Source of the DNA: a virus
Virus record (IMG/VR): IMGVR_UViG_3300048838_000280
Coordinates: 1-39,632 of that record
Reading direction: 5' to 3' (one strand)
Length of the DNA stretch: 39,632 nt
This document shows, one piece after another, positions 7,047 to 12,422 of this stretch. Position numbers and translations under genes: made by a program. How positions within the stretch are numbered: position 1 is the first letter of the stretch; every line of letters starts with the position of its first letter. The notes beneath the pieces were generated by a model. It was not told where the DNA came from. It saw nothing but the letters and a program-made list of their open reading frames with translations, and ran no database searches.

Positions 7047-7177
7047 CCACCGACACCGAAGACCCGCCGCGCGGCGGCGAGCTCGACCCGCTTGACGGCG
7101 CCGGCGCCGTCGTCGTGCCCCTCGTCGTGCTCGGCGCAGTGCTGGTGGCCGCGACGCTGCTGGCGATGGTGCTGTGA
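7043..7177 (+). CDS. 44-residue single-pass membrane protein
   Basis: An acidic N terminus (MTTDTEDPPRGGELDPLDG) followed by one transmembrane helix (AGAVVVPLVVLGAVLVAATL). The start overlaps the upstream stop as ATGA and the stop overlaps the nuclease ATG as TGATG. It is the second tiny membrane protein in this operon. Function unknown. Confidence 0.55.
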   Translation: MTTDTEDPPRGGELDPLDGAGAVVVPLVVLGAVLVAATLLAMVL

Positions 7178-8067
7178 TGCGCGCAGCGCGCCCCATGGGC
7201 GTGTACTACGACATGCCATTCGACGACTACCACGCCGTCGACGCTGTCAGTGCCAGCGGTCTGCGTGTGTTCTCGCGCTCGCCGTGGCACTACAGGCACC
7301 GCATCGCGATCACGCCAACGCGCCCAATGCTGCGCGGCACACTGGCGCACTGCGCGCTGCTGGAGCCGGATGCAATGTCGGCGCGCTACATCGTGGTGCC
7401 GGAGGACGCGCCGCGCCGGCCGACCGAGGCACAGTGGGCGGCCAAGAAGTCCAATGAGAGCAGCGAGGCCGCGAAGGCGTGGTGGCGCGACTGGCAGCAG
7501 AGGGCCGGATCGCGCGAGATCATCAGCGCCGAGGACTTCGCGATCTGCCGGCAGCAGCTCGAAGCCATTGAAGCTGTTCCCGAGCTCGCCGCGCTGCTAT
7601 CCGCCGGCCACGGTGAGGTCTCTGTCTTCTGGATCGACCCCGACGCCAGCCTTTACTGCAAGGCCCGTATCGACTGGCTTCAGGCCAGCGACAAGTCTGC
7701 GCGCATCCTCGAGCTCAAGTCCACGGCCGACGAATCGCCGGCCGCGTTCGGGCGCACGGCGGCGCGCATGAAGTACGAGCTGCAGCGCGCGCACTACATC
7801 GACGCCGTGAAGCTCGGCGCGCGGCTCAAGGTCGAGGATTTCATCTTCGCGGCCGTGACCTCTGCGCCGCCGGTGCTGGCCGTGCCCTACGACCTCACCG
7901 ACGAAATGATCAGCCAGGCCAGCGACGAGCGCGCTGAGCTGATGCAGCGCCTGGCGTGGTGCAAAAAGGAAGACCGCTGGCCCGCCTACGGCGACGGAAA
8001 GCAACTGCTCGACTACCCGGCCTACGCCAAGCGCAGCGCCGAAGTCGAGGTCTCATTCGTGGAGTGA
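7177..8067 (+). CDS. PD-(D/E)XK nuclease, RecE/exonuclease VIII-like
   Basis: A 296-residue nuclease. The N terminus (GVYYDMPFDDYHAVDAVSASGLR) matches the opening of RecE-type exonuclease VIII domains, followed by LRGTLAHCALLEP, the catalytic core DPDASLYCKARIDWL and the (D/E)xK motif in ILELKSTAD, then a helix with ELQRAHYIDAV. Such enzymes resect double-stranded DNA ends to make 3' single strands for annealing-based phage recombination. I chose ATG 7177 because it overlaps the upstream stop as TGATG. The next gene is probably its partner. Confidence 0.85.
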   Translation: MRAARPMGVYYDMPFDDYHAVDAVSASGLRVFSRSPWHYRHRIAITPTRPMLRGTLAHCALLEPDAMSARYIVVPEDAPRRPTEAQWAAKKSNESSEAAKAWWRDWQQRAGSREIISAEDFAICRQQLEAIEAVPELAALLSAGHGEVSVFWIDPDASLYCKARIDWLQASDKSARILELKSTADESPAAFGRTAARMKYELQRAHYIDAVKLGARLKVEDFIFAAVTSAPPVLAVPYDLTDEMISQASDERAELMQRLAWCKKEDRWPAYGDGKQLLDYPAYAKRSAEVEVSFVE

Positions 8068-8071
8068 TCCC

Positions 8072-8776
8072 GTGATCGACGTAACAGACCTGCGGCACAC
8101 CATCGTGCCCAATAGCGACCAGCTCAACGCCGACCAGCTCATCGGCGGTCCGATGACCATCACCGTGACTCGCGTCAGCGCCAGCAGCGGCGACCAGCCG
8201 GTGACCGTCCACTACGAAGGCGACAAGGGCAGGCCCTTCAAGCCGTGCCTCACCATGCGCAAGGTGCTGGTGCTGGCCTGGGGCCACGACGGCGCGCAGT
8301 GGCCCGGCAAGTCCATGCGTGTCTACAACGACCCCGACGTGCGCTTCGGCAAAGACCTGGTGGGCGGGGTGCGCATCTCGCACCTGTCGCACATCGCTGC
8401 GGACATCAAGGTCTCGCTCGCCGTGACCAAGGGGAAGAAGGCGCTCTACGAGATCAAGCGCCTGGCCGATGGAGACGCCGAGTTCACCGCGGCCATCAAG
8501 AGCGCGTCGACCATCGAAGCACTGAAGGAGGTCTTCTCCAAGGCATACAAGGCAACGAAGGACGATGAGCGCCGCGCCGCCTTCAAGGCCGAGTACGACC
8601 GCAGAACGCAGGAGCTGGCGCCGAGCGCGCAGCTCCGGAAGTTCGTCGCCGAGATCAACGAAGCGCCGAACGCTGACGAGGCTGCAGCCATCTTGGACGG
8701 CGCCCGCGAAGCGCTCAACCCCGCCGAACAGGCGGAACTGAACAAGGCCTACGCCGACCGCTTCGGCGATGCCTGA
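8072..8776 (+). CDS. Conserved partner of the phage exonuclease (possible recombination/annealing protein)
   Basis: A 234-residue protein starting with GTG; GGAG lies upstream, overlapping the nuclease stop. Residues about 20-125 resemble a protein often found beside phage exonucleases: MTITVTRVSASSGDQPVTVHY, YKPCLTM-like KPCLTMRKVLVLAWG, RVYNDPDVRFGK and GGVRISHLSHI. The C-terminal half is helical and charged. RecT/ERF-type annealing activity is a guess from gene order; I see no RecT or ERF signature. An SSB-like role is an alternative. Confidence 0.7.
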   Translation: MIDVTDLRHTIVPNSDQLNADQLIGGPMTITVTRVSASSGDQPVTVHYEGDKGRPFKPCLTMRKVLVLAWGHDGAQWPGKSMRVYNDPDVRFGKDLVGGVRISHLSHIAADIKVSLAVTKGKKALYEIKRLADGDAEFTAAIKSASTIEALKEVFSKAYKATKDDERRAAFKAEYDRRTQELAPSAQLRKFVAEINEAPNADEAAAILDGAREALNPAEQAELNKAYADRFGDA

Positions 8777-8788
8777 CCATTCGTCCAC

Positions 8789-9055
8789 GTGACCCCGCTC
8801 CCCGAAATGGAAAACGAACTGGAACACCTGCGCACCGAACTCGGCCGCGCCTACCGCGCATTGCACGCGTTCGCCTATGCCCAGCGCGCGGGCAAGACGC
8901 TCAGCGACACCGCTGTTATATACCACTCGCCAACGATCGGCGCAGCTGCACGATTTGTACACGAGGCTGCGCTGGACGGTGCCGAATACTTCATCGGTAA
9001 GCCGGTGGACGTGCTGCACGCTGCCTTGCGTGGTGACGAGCCCATTGCCGGATAA
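8789..9055 (+). CDS. Hypothetical protein ending at attC1 (possible first cassette gene)
   Basis: An 88-residue protein (GTG 8789; ATG 8807 also possible). Residues 5-30 form a charged coiled-coil-like helix (MENELEHLRTELGRAYRAL), followed by AVIYHSPTIGAAARFVHEAA and YFIGKPVDVLHAALRG. I recall similar small proteins in beta-proteobacterial phages. Its TAA stop lies inside the left core of attC1, exactly as in integron cassettes. No core GTT site is visible at its 5' end, so it may be a backbone gene that gained an attC, or the first cassette of the array. Confidence 0.65.
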   Translation: MTPLPEMENELEHLRTELGRAYRALHAFAYAQRAGKTLSDTAVIYHSPTIGAAARFVHEAALDGAEYFIGKPVDVLHAALRGDEPIAG

Positions 9056-9109
9056 CGATTGAGTTAAGCCGCGCCGCGAAGCGGCGTCGGCTTGGACGAA
9101 TTGTTAGCC
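9050..9109 (+). repeat. attC1
   Basis: Left core GGATAAC (9050-9056), right core GTTAGCC (9103-9109), with a long perfect stem GCCGCGCCGC / GCGGCGTCGGC around a GAA loop. From memory it is very close to the attC of aadA-type cassettes, with only a few differences. Both cores deviate slightly from consensus. Confidence 0.88.
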
Positions 9110-9135
9110 GTCACGCGACGGCATGGAGAAACGAA

Positions 9136-9351
9136 ATGCGATGCAAGTGCGGGAGCTACGCAATAAACCTCAGACACCACGGGCGTGACGACAGCGACAG
9201 CAATCTGTGCGACGTGTGCTATTGGCGCGTGCGCGCAGAGAGATACGCCGCGCTGTTGACGGAGATTGGGAACTACGCTCGTGACCACAGCACAGGCCCT
9301 GCCGTACCGGATGCACTGTGGACGATTCGCGGAATGGCATATGACGGCTAA
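9136..9351 (+). CDS. Cassette 1: small zinc-finger-like protein
   Basis: A 71-residue protein with MRCKCGSYAI and, after DSNLCDVCYWRVRAERYAAL, a possible four-cysteine zinc site (CKC...CDVC). The C-terminal half is helical. The TAA stop is in the left core of attC2. GGAG lies about 10 nt before the ATG. The function is unknown; DNA or protein binding is likely if zinc is bound. Confidence 0.7.
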   Translation: MRCKCGSYAINLRHHGRDDSDSNLCDVCYWRVRAERYAALLTEIGNYARDHSTGPAVPDALWTIRGMAYDG

Positions 9352-9446
9352 CGTGGAGGTAACCGGACATGGCCGGCGCTGATGAAGTAACCGAAGCGGC
9401 ACAAAGCGGCCCGCCGGGCATGGTCCGGTTGACCGCAGGGTTAGGC
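9346..9446 (+). repeat. attC2
   Basis: Left core GGCTAAC (9346-9352), right core GTTAGGC (9440-9446), 101 bp. The arms GGTAACCGGACATG and CATGGTCCGGTTGACC pair with one unpaired base on the L' side, the extrahelical base expected for attC. Confidence 0.9.
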
Positions 9447-9647
9447 ATCAACTGGGACGCTGAACGTGATGCGTTTGAACGCTGGTATCTCAGAACGCAG
9501 TGTGCCCGCAACCGCGTCCGCGTACACCGCGACGAAGTGACCGGCATGTACTTTGACAAGGTGGTAGCCATTGCCTGGAGGGCGTGGCGACAAGCCGCAA
9601 ACCGTCAGGCGAAGGCTGCTGCGAGCAAGGTTGTTGTTGATGCCTAA
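9369..9647 (+). CDS. Cassette 2: hypothetical protein starting inside attC2
   Basis: A 92-residue ORF whose only ATG (9369) lies within attC2, so the first 26 or so residues are attC-encoded (MAGADEVTEAAQSGPPGMVR...). The cassette-encoded part starts near INWDAERDAFERWYLRTQ and continues with DEVTGMYFDKVVAIAWRAWRQ, a Trp-rich helical segment. This resembles phage ead/Ea22-like C-terminal segments with an AW.AW pattern, which is only a suggestion. The stop TAA is in the left core of attC3. Confidence 0.6.
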   Translation: MAGADEVTEAAQSGPPGMVRLTAGLGINWDAERDAFERWYLRTQCARNRVRVHRDEVTGMYFDKVVAIAWRAWRQAANRQAKAAASKVVVDA

Positions 9648-9744
9648 CGTAGAGCTAACCGGGGACCAACGGCCATGAGCCAACCTGTAAGAAACGCTGA
9701 TGAGTTGCCGGCCGTTGGTACTCCGGTTGAGCGACCTGTTGGGC
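9642..9744 (+). repeat. attC3
   Basis: Left core GCCTAAC (9642-9648), right core GTTGGGC (9738-9744), 103 bp. Arms AGAGCTAACCGG and CCGGTTGAGCGACCT pair; the centre contains CCAACGGCC / GGCCGTTGG. Confidence 0.9.
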
Positions 9745-9869
9745 GGCCGGTGCCGGAGCGCACAGAGGATGGCACGCCGATTTGCCCGTGGTGCGAGCAA
9801 CCCATATGGGACTACTGCCGAAGCCAGTACGACACGATGACGTGCGTATGGCGACCGATGGAGGAATGA
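9675..9869 (+). CDS. Cassette 3: CPWC zinc-finger-like ORF beginning in attC3
   Basis: A 64-residue ORF. Residues 1-23 are translated from attC3 (ending ...VERPVGR across the right core); the rest includes PICPWCEQPIWDYC and a final TCVWRPMEE, giving a possible C4 zinc site. The stop overlaps the next ATG as ATGA. Whether the attC-coded leader is really translated is unclear; no in-frame ATG exists after the core before the zinc part. Confidence 0.5.
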   Translation: MSQPVRNADELPAVGTPVERPVGRPVPERTEDGTPICPWCEQPIWDYCRSQYDTMTCVWRPMEE

Positions 9870-10144
9870 CCATGTTTGTACTGACCGACGAGGTTAGGAC
9901 GGCGCGCAAGTTCTACGCCTGCGACGCAAGCGAGCTTTGGTGCAACTACGGCCCGCCGAGCGACGCGGTGACAGCCGATGACCGGCTGGTGTTGGATGGC
10001 GCGAAGGCCGACAAGTGGAAGATCAGGCCGGGCCAGCGCTACCGCTGCGTGGTGTTCCGCGACGGCCGCGAGCTGGTGACGCAACGCGCCCGGCTGGACA
10101 TGGATTCGCTGTGCCAGCGGCACGAGTTGTATGACGACGCCTAA
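9866..10144 (+). CDS. Cassette 3: hypothetical protein
   Basis: A 92-residue protein starting MTMFVLTDEVRTARKFYACD; GGAGGA precedes the ATG. It continues with ELWCNYGPPSDAVTADDRLV, then KIRPGQRYRCVVFRDGREL and DMDSLCQRHELYDDA. Mostly beta strands followed by a helix, with four cysteines. The segments resemble small phage proteins of unknown function. Its stop TAA is within the left core of attC4. ATGA overlap with the upstream ORF makes this a two-gene cassette. Confidence 0.68.
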   Translation: MTMFVLTDEVRTARKFYACDASELWCNYGPPSDAVTADDRLVLDGAKADKWKIRPGQRYRCVVFRDGRELVTQRARLDMDSLCQRHELYDDA

Positions 10145-10240
10145 CGCAGAGCTAAACGGACCGGGCCGGCGCAGATGAACTGTCAAGGAATGCTTGAGCG
10201 TTGCCCGCCGGCCCGGGTCCGCTTGAGCGCACTGTTGGGC
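10139..10240 (+). repeat. attC4
   Basis: Left core GCCTAAC (10139-10145), right core GTTGGGC (10234-10240), 102 bp. Arms AAACGGACCGGGCCGGC and GCCGGCCCGGGTCCGCTT form a long GC stem. Confidence 0.9.
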
Positions 10241-10266
10241 GGCTGCCGCCCGGAGCGAGGAAGACT

Positions 10267-10464
10267 ATGCACACAGCACCGATGTCAGACAGCCAAGGCG
10301 AGTTCGCCGAGTTCAAGACCCAGCCCGACGTGCCTTGCCGCAAGTGCGGCGTGCACGCGGTGAGCATGCGCGAGTGGGAAAGCTCGTGCGGCGGCTGGGA
10401 GGACTACCAGTACAAGTGCCACCACTGCGGGCATGCATGGTGGGTGGAAGGGATCGACGCATGA
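10267..10464 (+). CDS. Cassette 4: zinc-ribbon protein
   Basis: A 65-residue protein with two zinc knuckles: CRKCGVHAVSM and YKCHHCGHAWW. This CxxC...CxxC layout is a zinc ribbon, common in nucleic-acid-binding phage proteins. I chose ATG 10267 (purine-rich GAGCGAGGAAG upstream); a frame open from TTG 10201 runs back into attC4. The next gene starts inside its 3' end as ATGA. Confidence 0.7.
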   Translation: MHTAPMSDSQGEFAEFKTQPDVPCRKCGVHAVSMREWESSCGGWEDYQYKCHHCGHAWWVEGIDA

Positions 10465-10649
10465 CTACCTGGGCTGACGAGTACGTGACCATGCTCGAAG
10501 ACTGCGAGAAGCGCAGCGAGCGGCTGACCGACTGGGAATGCGGGTTCGTGGACTCGCTGCAGCGGCAACTGGCCGAGGGCCGGCGCCCGAGCCAGAAGCA
10601 AGTTGAGACGCTGGACACCATTTGGGAGCGCGCCACCAAGCGCGGATGA
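10461..10649 (+). CDS. Cassette 4: MTTWADEY-family small protein, copy 1
   Basis: A 62-residue helical protein (MTTWADEYVTMLEDCEKRSE, LTDWECGFVDSLQRQLAEG, SQKQVETLDTIWERATKRG). Similar short proteins occur in many phages, but I know no function. It is 48 of 62 residues identical to the ORF at 11686-11874 in cassette 6. Its ATG overlaps the zinc-ribbon stop as ATGA. In both cassettes it follows a cysteine-rich ORF. Confidence 0.75.
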   Translation: MTTWADEYVTMLEDCEKRSERLTDWECGFVDSLQRQLAEGRRPSQKQVETLDTIWERATKRG

Positions 10650-10653
10650 AGCC

Positions 10654-11004
10654 ATGCACGTTGAACTGCAGATGGACATTGCGCTGCTGCAGCGCGCCAT
10701 GAAGGCCGAAACGGAAGCTGCGCTGCTGCGGGCCGCGCTGGACGCCGAGACGGCGCGCTGGGAAGAAGCCCTGCGGCGGACGTGGCAGATGGTGGACCCG
10801 CTGAATCCTGCAGGGGCGCCCGGCAGCTACGCACGCGGCCAGGACAGCGGGATAGTGGCCGCGCTGACCACACTGCGGGCGAACCTGAAGACGCCTAACG
10901 TAGAGGTAACCGGCGCGCGGAGGCGAGGCGCCCTGGCCGCGAGGCGCAGGATAGACAACGAGCGCATCGCGGCCAGGGCGCCTTGCCGTAGTGCGTCCGG
11001 TTGA
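10654..11004 (+). CDS. Cassette 4: coiled-coil ORF reading into attC5
   Basis: A 116-residue ORF. Residues 1-50 (MHVELQMDIALLQRAMKAET, ALLRAALDAETARWEEALRR) form a coiled coil, then PLNPAGAPGSYARGQDSGIV. It has no stop at the left core; the frame continues through attC5 and stops at the TGA of the L' arm, so the last 35 or so residues are attC-encoded. This differs from the usual cassette pattern and may reflect a changed frame near 10890. Confidence 0.5.
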   Translation: MHVELQMDIALLQRAMKAETEAALLRAALDAETARWEEALRRTWQMVDPLNPAGAPGSYARGQDSGIVAALTTLRANLKTPNVEVTGARRRGALAARRRIDNERIAARAPCRSASG

Positions 11005-11018
11005 CCGACATGTTAGGC
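10893..11018 (+). repeat. attC5
   Basis: Left core GCCTAAC (10893-10899), right core GTTAGGC (11012-11018), 126 bp, the longest of the set. Arms GAGGTAACCGG and CCGGTTGACCG pair, and the centre has GGCGCCCTGGCCGC paired with GCGGCCAGGGCGCC. Confidence 0.92.
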
Positions 11019-11045
11019 GGCAACGAAACAATCTAGGAGAGCAAC

Positions 11046-11408
11046 ATGGGAACGATGATTCAGCAATACCAAGGCGCCAAGCGCGAACACGACGAATGCG
11101 CCGCATGGGCTGGGCTGATTGGCAGCAAGTATCACGGCGGCGGCGGCGGGATTGGCGAACTGACGTCGCTGCGCCTGATGAGTGGCGAAGCCGCGCCGAC
11201 CGTGTACCACCAGTACAGCGACGGCGCGAAGAACTACCACCACATGCCGGCCGCGCTGGCGCCGCACCTGGAGGCCGCGATCAAGGCCCGATTCGGCGAA
11301 CTGCTGGCTGACGCGCTGGAGCGCCAGAAAGCCGCGCTGAAGCAGGCTGCGGAGGCGGCCGTGAAGGAGCATGGCGAACTACTGAAGGCGGCTGGTATTG
11401 CTGCCTAA
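11046..11408 (+). CDS. Cassette 5: hypothetical helical protein
   Basis: A 120-residue protein, MGTMIQQYQGAKREHDECAA, a glycine run (HGGGGGIGEL), then a long C-terminal helix (KARFGELLADALERQKAALK followed by QAAEAAVKEHGELLK). GGAGAG is 7 nt upstream of the ATG. Its TAA lies in the left core of attC6. It is the largest simple single-gene cassette. No family recognised. Confidence 0.72.
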   Translation: MGTMIQQYQGAKREHDECAAWAGLIGSKYHGGGGGIGELTSLRLMSGEAAPTVYHQYSDGAKNYHHMPAALAPHLEAAIKARFGELLADALERQKAALKQAAEAAVKEHGELLKAAGIAA

Positions 11409-11514
11409 CGCAAAGCTCACCGGCACGCAACGCGAGGACCGCACATGACAGAAGACACCACCACGCCAGCACCCAGCGAGCCCGTTGCGGGTCCGGTGCA
11501 GCGACCTGTTGGGC
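11403..11514 (+). repeat. attC6
   Basis: Left core GCCTAAC (11403-11409), right core GTTGGGC (11508-11514), 112 bp. The L'' arm is AGCTCACCGGCACGCAACG and the L' arm CGTTGCGGGTCCGGTGCAGC. Confidence 0.88.
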
Positions 11515-11702
11515 GGCTGGAGCCGGAGCGCGACCAAGATGGCCAGCGAGGCAGCTACGGCTGCGCATGCGTGGCCGACTCGGCGCGGCTGTGCACGCTG
11601 ATTCGCTACGGCCGCGACATTGACGGCCACGAGCAGCACGACGACGACGACTGCGAGTGCTTGTGCCACCAGTGGAGAGGCGACGATGACTACCTGGGCT
11701 GA
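11445..11702 (+). CDS. Cassette 6: cysteine-rich ORF beginning in attC6
   Basis: An 85-residue ORF. The first 24 residues come from attC6 (MTEDTTTPAPSEPVAGPVQR...), then VGRLEPERDQDG, a cysteine-rich part (GCACVADSARLC) and an acidic HEQHDDDDCECLCHQW. The frame through the right core is the same as in cassette 3 (PVGR...PER). It overlaps the next gene by 17 nt. Zinc or metal binding through the Cys/His/Asp cluster is possible. Confidence 0.5.
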   Translation: MTEDTTTPAPSEPVAGPVQRPVGRLEPERDQDGQRGSYGCACVADSARLCTLIRYGRDIDGHEQHDDDDCECLCHQWRGDDDYLG

Positions 11703-11874
11703 TGAGTACCTGACGCTGCTGGAAGACTGCGAGCGGCGAAGCGACAAGCTCTCCGATTGGGAGTGCGGCTTCGTGGACAGCCTGCAGCGCCAGCTTTCTG
11801 AGGGCCGGCGCCCCACCGCGAAGCAGATCGAGACGCTCGACCGCGTGTGGGAGAAGGCGACGGCACGAGGATGA
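11686..11874 (+). CDS. Cassette 6: MTTWADEY-family small protein, copy 2
   Basis: A 62-residue paralogue of 10461-10649 (48 of 62 identical; differences are mainly conservative). GGAGAGG lies upstream of the ATG. Its TGA is just before the left core of attC7. The preservation of length and of the DWECGFVDSLQRQL core in both copies suggests selection for function. Confidence 0.75.
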   Translation: MTTWADEYLTLLEDCERRSDKLSDWECGFVDSLQRQLSEGRRPTAKQIETLDRVWEKATARG

Positions 11875-11875
11875 C

Positions 11876-11932
11876 GCCCAACGCAGAGCTGTGCGGCGTG
11901 CGCAGCACGTCCGAACGAGCGCCGGGTTATGC
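11876..11932 (+). repeat. attC7 (short, slightly divergent)
   Basis: Left core GCCCAAC (11876-11882), right core GTTATGC (11926-11932; one mismatch to GTTRRRY), 57 bp. The centre GCGGCGTGCGCAGCACGTCCG folds into a short stem. It is the weakest right core after attC1. Confidence 0.8.
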
Positions 11933-11958
11933 CTCGGCGCCAAATACGGAGGAATGAC

Positions 11959-12120
11959 ATGGACCACCTGATTGACGACAGCGACCGGCTGAAGCCCTGC
12001 CCGTTTTGCGGCGCGGAAGCGGAAATTATCACGCTCGAAGGCGAGACGGACGAGCCGAGCGTCGGCGCTCAGTGCGTGCAATGCACCAGCAGTGCAGCAT
12101 GCAAGACCCGGTGCCAGTGA
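11959..12120 (+). CDS. Cassette 7: Lar-like zinc ribbon (restriction alleviation family)
   Basis: A 53-residue protein with RLKPCPFCGAEAEII and later GAQCVQCTSSAACKTRC. The LKPCPFCG...C..C pattern is typical of the Lar restriction-alleviation family and related small phage zinc ribbons. Lar of Rac prophage modulates type I restriction; function here is inferred from the family only. GGAGGA lies upstream of ATG 11959. The next gene overlaps its 3' end. Confidence 0.75.
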   Translation: MDHLIDDSDRLKPCPFCGAEAEIITLEGETDEPSVGAQCVQCTSSAACKTRCQ

Positions 12121-12362
12121 AGGACAACCACCTGTCGTGCTGCCTGGGCGTGAAGGCGCGCGAGTGCCCGCACCTGCTGGCGCTGGAGAAGATCGAGCGT
12201 TGCACGCCCGAGGACGTGGACGCCGCGAAGGCTTGGACGTGCGCGGCGCACATCGTGAGCAAGGGCGGCGACTTCGCCAACGAGGGGTACATGCTGCGCG
12301 TCGATGACCGCATGTACTGGGACAACGTGTACGAAAGCCTCGCGCAGAGCGATGAGGGCTAA
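12099..12362 (+). CDS. Cassette 7: hypothetical Cys-containing protein
   Basis: An 87-residue protein (MQDPVPVKDNHLSCCLGVKA, ECPHLLALEKIERCTPEDVD, AKAWTCAAHIVSKGGDFANE, ending RMYWDNVYESLAQSDEG). Similar short proteins occur in phages as I recall; function unknown. ATG 12081 would add six residues. Its TAA lies in the left core of attC8. Confidence 0.65.
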   Translation: MQDPVPVKDNHLSCCLGVKARECPHLLALEKIERCTPEDVDAAKAWTCAAHIVSKGGDFANEGYMLRVDDRMYWDNVYESLAQSDEG

Positions 12363-12422
12363 CGCAGAGGTAACCGGCAGACCCGGCTTGCCGGGGCTGT
12401 CCGGTTGAGTGACGGGTTAGGC
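12357..12422 (+). repeat. attC8 (last site of the array)
   Basis: Left core GGCTAAC (12357-12363), right core GTTAGGC (12416-12422), 66 bp, with arms GGTAACCGG and CCGGTTGAGT and a central CCCGGC/GCCGGG stem. The TTA of its right core is also the stop codon (TAA) of the convergent leftward gene 12417-12602. Confidence 0.9.

Follow-up and report, generated by a model that had tools for sequence, protein, structure and literature searches.

Genes lying antisense to their attC sites recur across dozens of phage contigs. One such array resides in the window, the stretch of 39,632 nucleotides analyzed (positions 1 to 39,632 of IMG/VR virus record IMGVR_UViG_3300048838_000280), and starts at attC1 (9050-9109), a site originally noticed for its resemblance to the attC of aadA resistance cassettes. 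attC1 is probably one attC of a phage-borne CALIN made up by inverted attC-SD-gene units, which is embedded in an early operon and presumably moved by IntI acting in trans.

The attC1 site and its relatives

The likeness of attC1 to the aadA1 attC extends to the whole site, beyond the level of the stem. From 9053 to 9107 (TAAC...GTTAG), 53/55 bases are those of the aadA1 attC of plasmid R100 (two mismatches, 96.4%), and 52/55 those of the aadB attC (three mismatches). The original prediction of a few differing bases holds, as does that of shared inner sequences, both found without mismatch at the places given, GAGTTAAGCCGCGCCGCGAA at 9061-9080 and GCGGCGTCGGCTTG at 9081-9094; the former occurs once in the window, against a chance expectation of 0.01. 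The other seven sites of the window belong, as also anticipated, to another attC type (GCCTAACGYAGAGSTAACCGG...). The R''/R' and L''/L' arms, the bulged base and a foldable bottom strand, recognized by detector and fold, make attC1 an attC site, in which R' is GTTATCC and departs from GTTRRRY at one base. As 60-nt single strands, attC1 folds at -18.9 kcal/mol (z -5.3) and the aadA1 attC at -18.8.

The conserved inner hairpin GAGTTAAGCCG...CGGCTTGRAYGAATTGTTAG identifies attC1, on base identity to known sites, as Xanthomonadales-type, and several class 1 attC sites are assigned to the same type in passages of Qi et al. (PMC9892861). Mismatches were ranked for attC1 against every such site in the loci fetched, and the sites with a single mismatch (54/55) are found in genome contigs of Thermomonas haemolytica (L073), Lysobacter terrigena (L156) and Lampropedia cohaerens (L149). 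Exact matches to the 47-base hairpin pattern GAGTTAAGCC...CTTGRAYGAATTGTTAG occur in at least 118 bacterial genome stretches, mostly Lysobacteraceae, the genera among the matches listed being mostly Luteimonas, Lysobacter, Thermomonas, Pseudoxanthomonas and Stenotrophomonas; the 31-base core of attC1 is exact in 14 viral stretches. Judged by its bases, attC1 is a member of a widespread Xanthomonadales-type attC, not specific to aadA. Because the clinical aadA and aadB sites share this type, the likeness to aadA reflects a common type rather than a proven exchange. The suggestion that phage and clinically circulating integrons exchange cassettes stands in part: a link to the bacterial integron cassette pool is well supported by the type of attC1, while the specific clinical link is unsupported, closer sites being non-clinical. 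A DNA search of phage records matched only P1 and one Salmonella record, both through attC itself, and nothing in the window reached the gathering threshold of Rfam. The attC types of the window point, as far as sequence types can tell, to Burkholderiales or Lysobacterales as host of the phage.

An inverted array in a phage early operon

The window carries portal, major head and tape measure genes of a tailed phage (phrog_12 E 1e-107, phrog_10 E 8e-48, tape measure E 1e-15). The array is preceded on the + strand by an early operon (7174-9055) encoding exonuclease VIII (7174-8067), a phrog_11517 protein (8072-8776) and an ORF at 8789-9055, all co-directional with the array. A gene caller trained on the loci predicts + genes only from 7174 to 12362, and both third-position GC and codon composition in the array favor + ORFs and disfavor minus ORFs.

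Relative to the match with the window + strand, the genes aadB and aadA1 are encoded on minus; therefore the + strand of the window corresponds to the attC bottom strand. The bulged base gives the same polarity for attC2, attC3, attC5 and attC6 (detector), the remaining sites having been read by eye, and the same detector returns the expected polarity for class 1 sites of known polarity. As the bottom strand of attC1 is on +, its cassette lies to its right (9056-9351; unit limits were set by the IntI cut G|TTRRRY, RYYYAA|C on +), and the ORF 8789-9055, originally proposed as the cassette gene of attC1, falls on the wrong side, outside the unit, and is ruled out by polarity. This ORF has no match among phage records; an attG-like insertion at its stop codon (GGATAA|C) was considered, and no close relative with an empty site at this stop was found. 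Bacterial cassettes feature a gene followed by attC, the gene being on the attC top strand. All genes of the window array are on +, as is the bottom strand of all its attC sites, and hence are antisense to their own attC, an arrangement different from that of canonical integron gene cassettes.

The array includes eight attC sites, six found by the detector (one with relaxed settings) and two by eye, all with the top strand on minus and the recombinogenic bottom strand on +; all units are read from the + strand. attC1 is supported by motifs, identity, bulge and fold. Unit 1 (9056-9351) comprises attC1, a leader and a called ORF at 9136-9351 (71 aa), whose TAA stop falls at the unit boundary and whose N-terminal 34 aa are 70.6% identical to a protein of Aeromonas phage AsC4_1. 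Unit 2 (9352-9647) is made up by attC2 (9346-9446; detector score 14.3, bulge on the + 3' arm, fold z -3.7 for the + strand) and ORF 9369-9647, which starts inside attC2 and stops at the boundary. Unit 3 (9648-10144), with attC3 (9642-9744; detector), hosts ORF 9675-9869, also starting inside its attC, and ORF 9872-10144, stopping at the boundary. Unit 4 (10145-10898), with attC4 (10139-10240; relaxed detector), carries a zinc-ribbon-like ORF ending at 10464, ORF 10461-10649 and ORF 10654-11004. This last ORF features no boundary stop and runs through the left half of attC5, a possible trace of past recombination. Unit 5 (10899-11408) starts with attC5 (10893-11018; detector, fold z -10.1), the longest hairpin of the array, and contains ORF 11046-11408, backed by gene call and codon score and stopping at the boundary. 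Unit 6 (11409-11881), with attC6 (11403-11514; detector), carries ORF 11445-11702, starting inside attC6, and ORF 11689-11874; the latter and 10461-10649 in unit 4 are closely similar small paralogues (TTWADEY...), which would fit a copying event inside the array. Unit 7 (11882-12362) features a degenerate attC7 (11876-11932), read from the sequence and missed by the detector at threshold, a Lar-like restriction alleviation ORF at 11929-12120 (phrog_599, E 2e-7) and an ORF ending at the boundary (12362). attC8 (12357-12422), also read from the sequence, is the right end of the array, attI-proximal by polarity, and has no adjacent integrase.

A TAA stop falls exactly at the RYYYAA|C recombination point in 6/8 sites (9055, 9351, 9647, 10144, 11408 and 12362). 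No match to the integron integrase (TIGR02249) was found in the window. At least two close attC sites with no intI in the window define the array as a CALIN and set it apart from a complete integron, the record being possibly incomplete, and from mobile class 1 integrons, no resistance gene being recognized in the array.

The leader of unit 1 includes GGAG at 9125 (+ strand), preceded by a small hairpin, GCCGT-N-ACGGC (9107-9122), which lies between attC and the ribosome-binding site and recurs in the contigs L007, L197, L225 and L014. Near copies of the leader GTTAGCCGTCACGCGACGGCATGGAGAAACGAAATG are found ahead of different genes in L007, L197 and L225, and a looser copy in L014. L197 is a related phage contig, encoding homologues of exonuclease VIII and of the phrog_11517 protein (49 and 52%), and carrying, downstream in the same run of genes, an aadA-like attC with a similar leader behind it. 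The far end of L197 12683-13094 stops within the apparent start of a next attC (GCCTAACG). A near-identical phage contig of 28.8 kb (G001; L054/L039 start), with a 100% identical portal, starts at window position 10887, 6 bases before attC5; its sequence ends at attC5 and offers no alternative neighbor there.

Orientation of genes in viral and bacterial arrays

Viral contigs were collected by attC motifs carrying no information on genes. After dereplication, and counting the window, genes are mostly antisense in 42 viral arrays and mostly sense in 8; for bacterial arrays, collected by the Xanthomonadales motif, the counts are 0 and 81 (Fisher 1e-26); in arrays with at least three sites the antisense to sense ratio is 27:3 in viral and 0:68 in bacterial DNA. 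As a safeguard against errors in the calling of polarity and of genes, two simpler tests were added. When only the motif and a gene covering its left flank were scored, antisense to sense ratios were 38:5 in viral contigs vs. 3:20 in bacterial ones for the window-type motif, and 35:5 vs. 2:87 for the Xanthomonadales-type motif. A test free of both caller and detector, scoring whether a ribosome-binding site and then ATG occur no more than 57 bases past the 3' end of the attC bottom strand, was positive at 39/53 distinct viral sites and at 29/643 bacterial sites (P 1e-33), and at 0/17 sites from two viral contigs with a host-type integron integrase. Sense viral arrays include two contigs with a host-type IntI above cut-off. 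Where an upstream gene was called, it is co-directional in 38/40 inverted viral arrays. Genes starting inside the attC loop are 21/182 in inverted arrays vs. 22/401, a modest difference only. The few bacterial contigs antisense for the window-type motif (L321, L327 and L313, from Burkholderiales genomes) may be prophages carrying inverted arrays. The virulent phage TJE1 shows canonical polarity, and therefore inversion is no law for all phages.

Two temperate phage contigs, G047 (L279/L280; IMG/VR 3300034053_000051) and G053 (L277/L278; 3300042484_003364), encode a genuine integron integrase (428 and 429 bits, respectively, the cut-off being 265), along with tape-measure and phage integrase. 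In both, inverted cassettes are read towards intI and on the same strand, in the geometry predicted; attC polarity relative to intI is canonical, and only the genes are flipped. This geometry suggests that the integrase/attI side fixes the direction of attC, and that the phage promoter would reside at the far end.

The mobile unit would be the reverse of a bacterial cassette: in the direction of transcription it would comprise attC, a short leader with a ribosome-binding site and one or a few small phage genes, usually terminated by a TAA that coincides with the following recombination point (RYYYAA|C on +). Units would be transcribed from the phage operon, transcription entering from the operon side. 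IntI supplied by a host integron or a co-resident phage would fold and cut the bottom strand of attC, which is the coding strand in this array. Units may be lost, gained or reordered in this way, and possibly moved between phages. Promoter position would be the cause of inversion: with attC polarity presumably set from the integrase/attI side, and the promoter at the opposite end, only flipped genes would be expressed.

Inversion might alternatively have been selected for recombination, since cassettes would gain mobility with their attC bottom strand serving as lagging-strand template or as the displaced non-template strand. The bottom strand must be single-stranded to act, and is the coding strand in inverted arrays; yet a co-directional gene run alone explains the pattern, and this possibility is regarded as unlikely. 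Quite unlikely is that the hairpins, with the more stable strand transcribed, now act in phage mRNA, in termination, processing or control of translation, instead of as recombination sites. In favor of such a role, folding of three window sites was more stable for + than for minus, the hairpin is immediately followed by a ribosome-binding site, a second small hairpin is present at 14/53 viral sites, and most contigs have no integrase. Against it, the sites retain the features of true attC (core boxes, spacers and a single bulged base), stop codons fall at the cut point, two phage contigs carry IntI, and published phage attC sites recombine with attI1 (in the sections of PMC9892861 on phage sites).

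Recent acquisition of the array from a mobile integron, clinical or other, with attC1 brought in together with its cassette as a hybrid aadA site, would account for the 53/55 identity to aadA1 and for thousands of plasmid matches. Bacterial genome sites closer than those of aadA1 and aadB exclude clinical origin as a specific reading of attC1, the type is commonplace in Lysobacteraceae, no resistance gene was recognized, the cassette 1 gene resembles a phage gene, and the class 1 arrays examined are sense whereas the window array is antisense, all of which makes such an acquisition very improbable. Errors in polarity or gene calls are a hardly credible source of the inversion: GC-rich DNA does contain long spurious ORFs on both strands, and the training accuracy of the caller was about 0.87, but the caller- and detector-free test separates viral from bacterial sites, and the same motifs are sense in bacteria.

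Relation to known arrays, cargo and implications

Returning to the phage-borne CALIN of inverted units, CALINs and integrons in phages are described in the pages of Qi et al. 2023 (PMC9892861) dealing with TJE1, PH101, P12002L, MW202573 and Vibrio and Shewanella prophages. There, as in the window, attC clusters without integrase reside in phage genomes. Methyltransferases are found among the cassettes described, and sites described are able to recombine with attI1. Divergent site directions are noted for P12002L, and the genes of TJE1 and PH101 are given in the typical orientation, unlike those of the window array. These pages contain no mention of inverted cassettes as a class, of an attC-SD-ATG unit, or of an integron integrase downstream of an inverted array. 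A limited search of the open-access literature, excluding subscription papers and preprints, retrieved no report of inverted phage cassettes. Phage CALINs are already known; systematic inversion, the attC-SD-ATG unit and the downstream integrase look new.

Bacterial relatives share site types with the window and differ in gene orientation. Class 1 aadA1 and aadB sites are of the same type as attC1 and have a similar predicted fold, but in their cassettes the gene is on the opposite strand relative to attC, and they are not the nearest relatives. Chromosomal integrons of the Xanthomonadales type (Lysobacter, Luteimonas, Thermomonas) carry attC1-type sites with identity up to 54/55, but 83 of these arrays are mostly sense and 0 mostly antisense, and SD plus ATG after the bottom strand is rare (29/643). 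The CTAACGTAGAGCTAACCGG attC type, the motif of the other window sites, is found in Burkholderiales arrays in 25/399 genomes of the order, where genes are sense in 20/23 contigs.

Inverted arrays encode 146 proteins, the recognizable ones being DNA methyltransferases, Mom, Lar, NinX, Gp157, dATP/dGTP diphosphohydrolase and helix-turn-helix proteins. This cargo fits a role in countering host restriction, as likewise proposed for methyltransferases in the corresponding passage of Qi et al. (PMC9892861). Nine contig ends, that of G001 included, are found near attC motifs, against 2.2 expected (P 5e-4); the excess could instead stem from assembly breaks at repeats. In an all-against-all comparison of the viral contigs, no unit bounded by attC at both ends was shared between different settings, beyond near-identical arrays and a host-integron pair.

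It is conceivable, though somewhat short of an even chance, that tailed phages keep a cassette pool of their own, in which inverted attC-SD-gene units, rich in anti-restriction and takeover genes, are shuffled in the early operon by phage or host IntI, with limited exchange with bacterial arrays. Exchange would be limited because transfer in either direction leaves the cassette to be read backwards. Phage attC clusters have previously been treated as borrowed bacterial arrays, and consistent inversion marks a distinct design. A cassette passing from a phage array to a bacterial one, or the reverse, would be antisense to the promoter at its new place, which bears on how readily cassettes could pass between phages and resistance integrons, the concern behind the original prediction. 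An attC with SD and ATG behind it on the bottom strand is a sequence signature usable to find phage cassettes in metagenomes.
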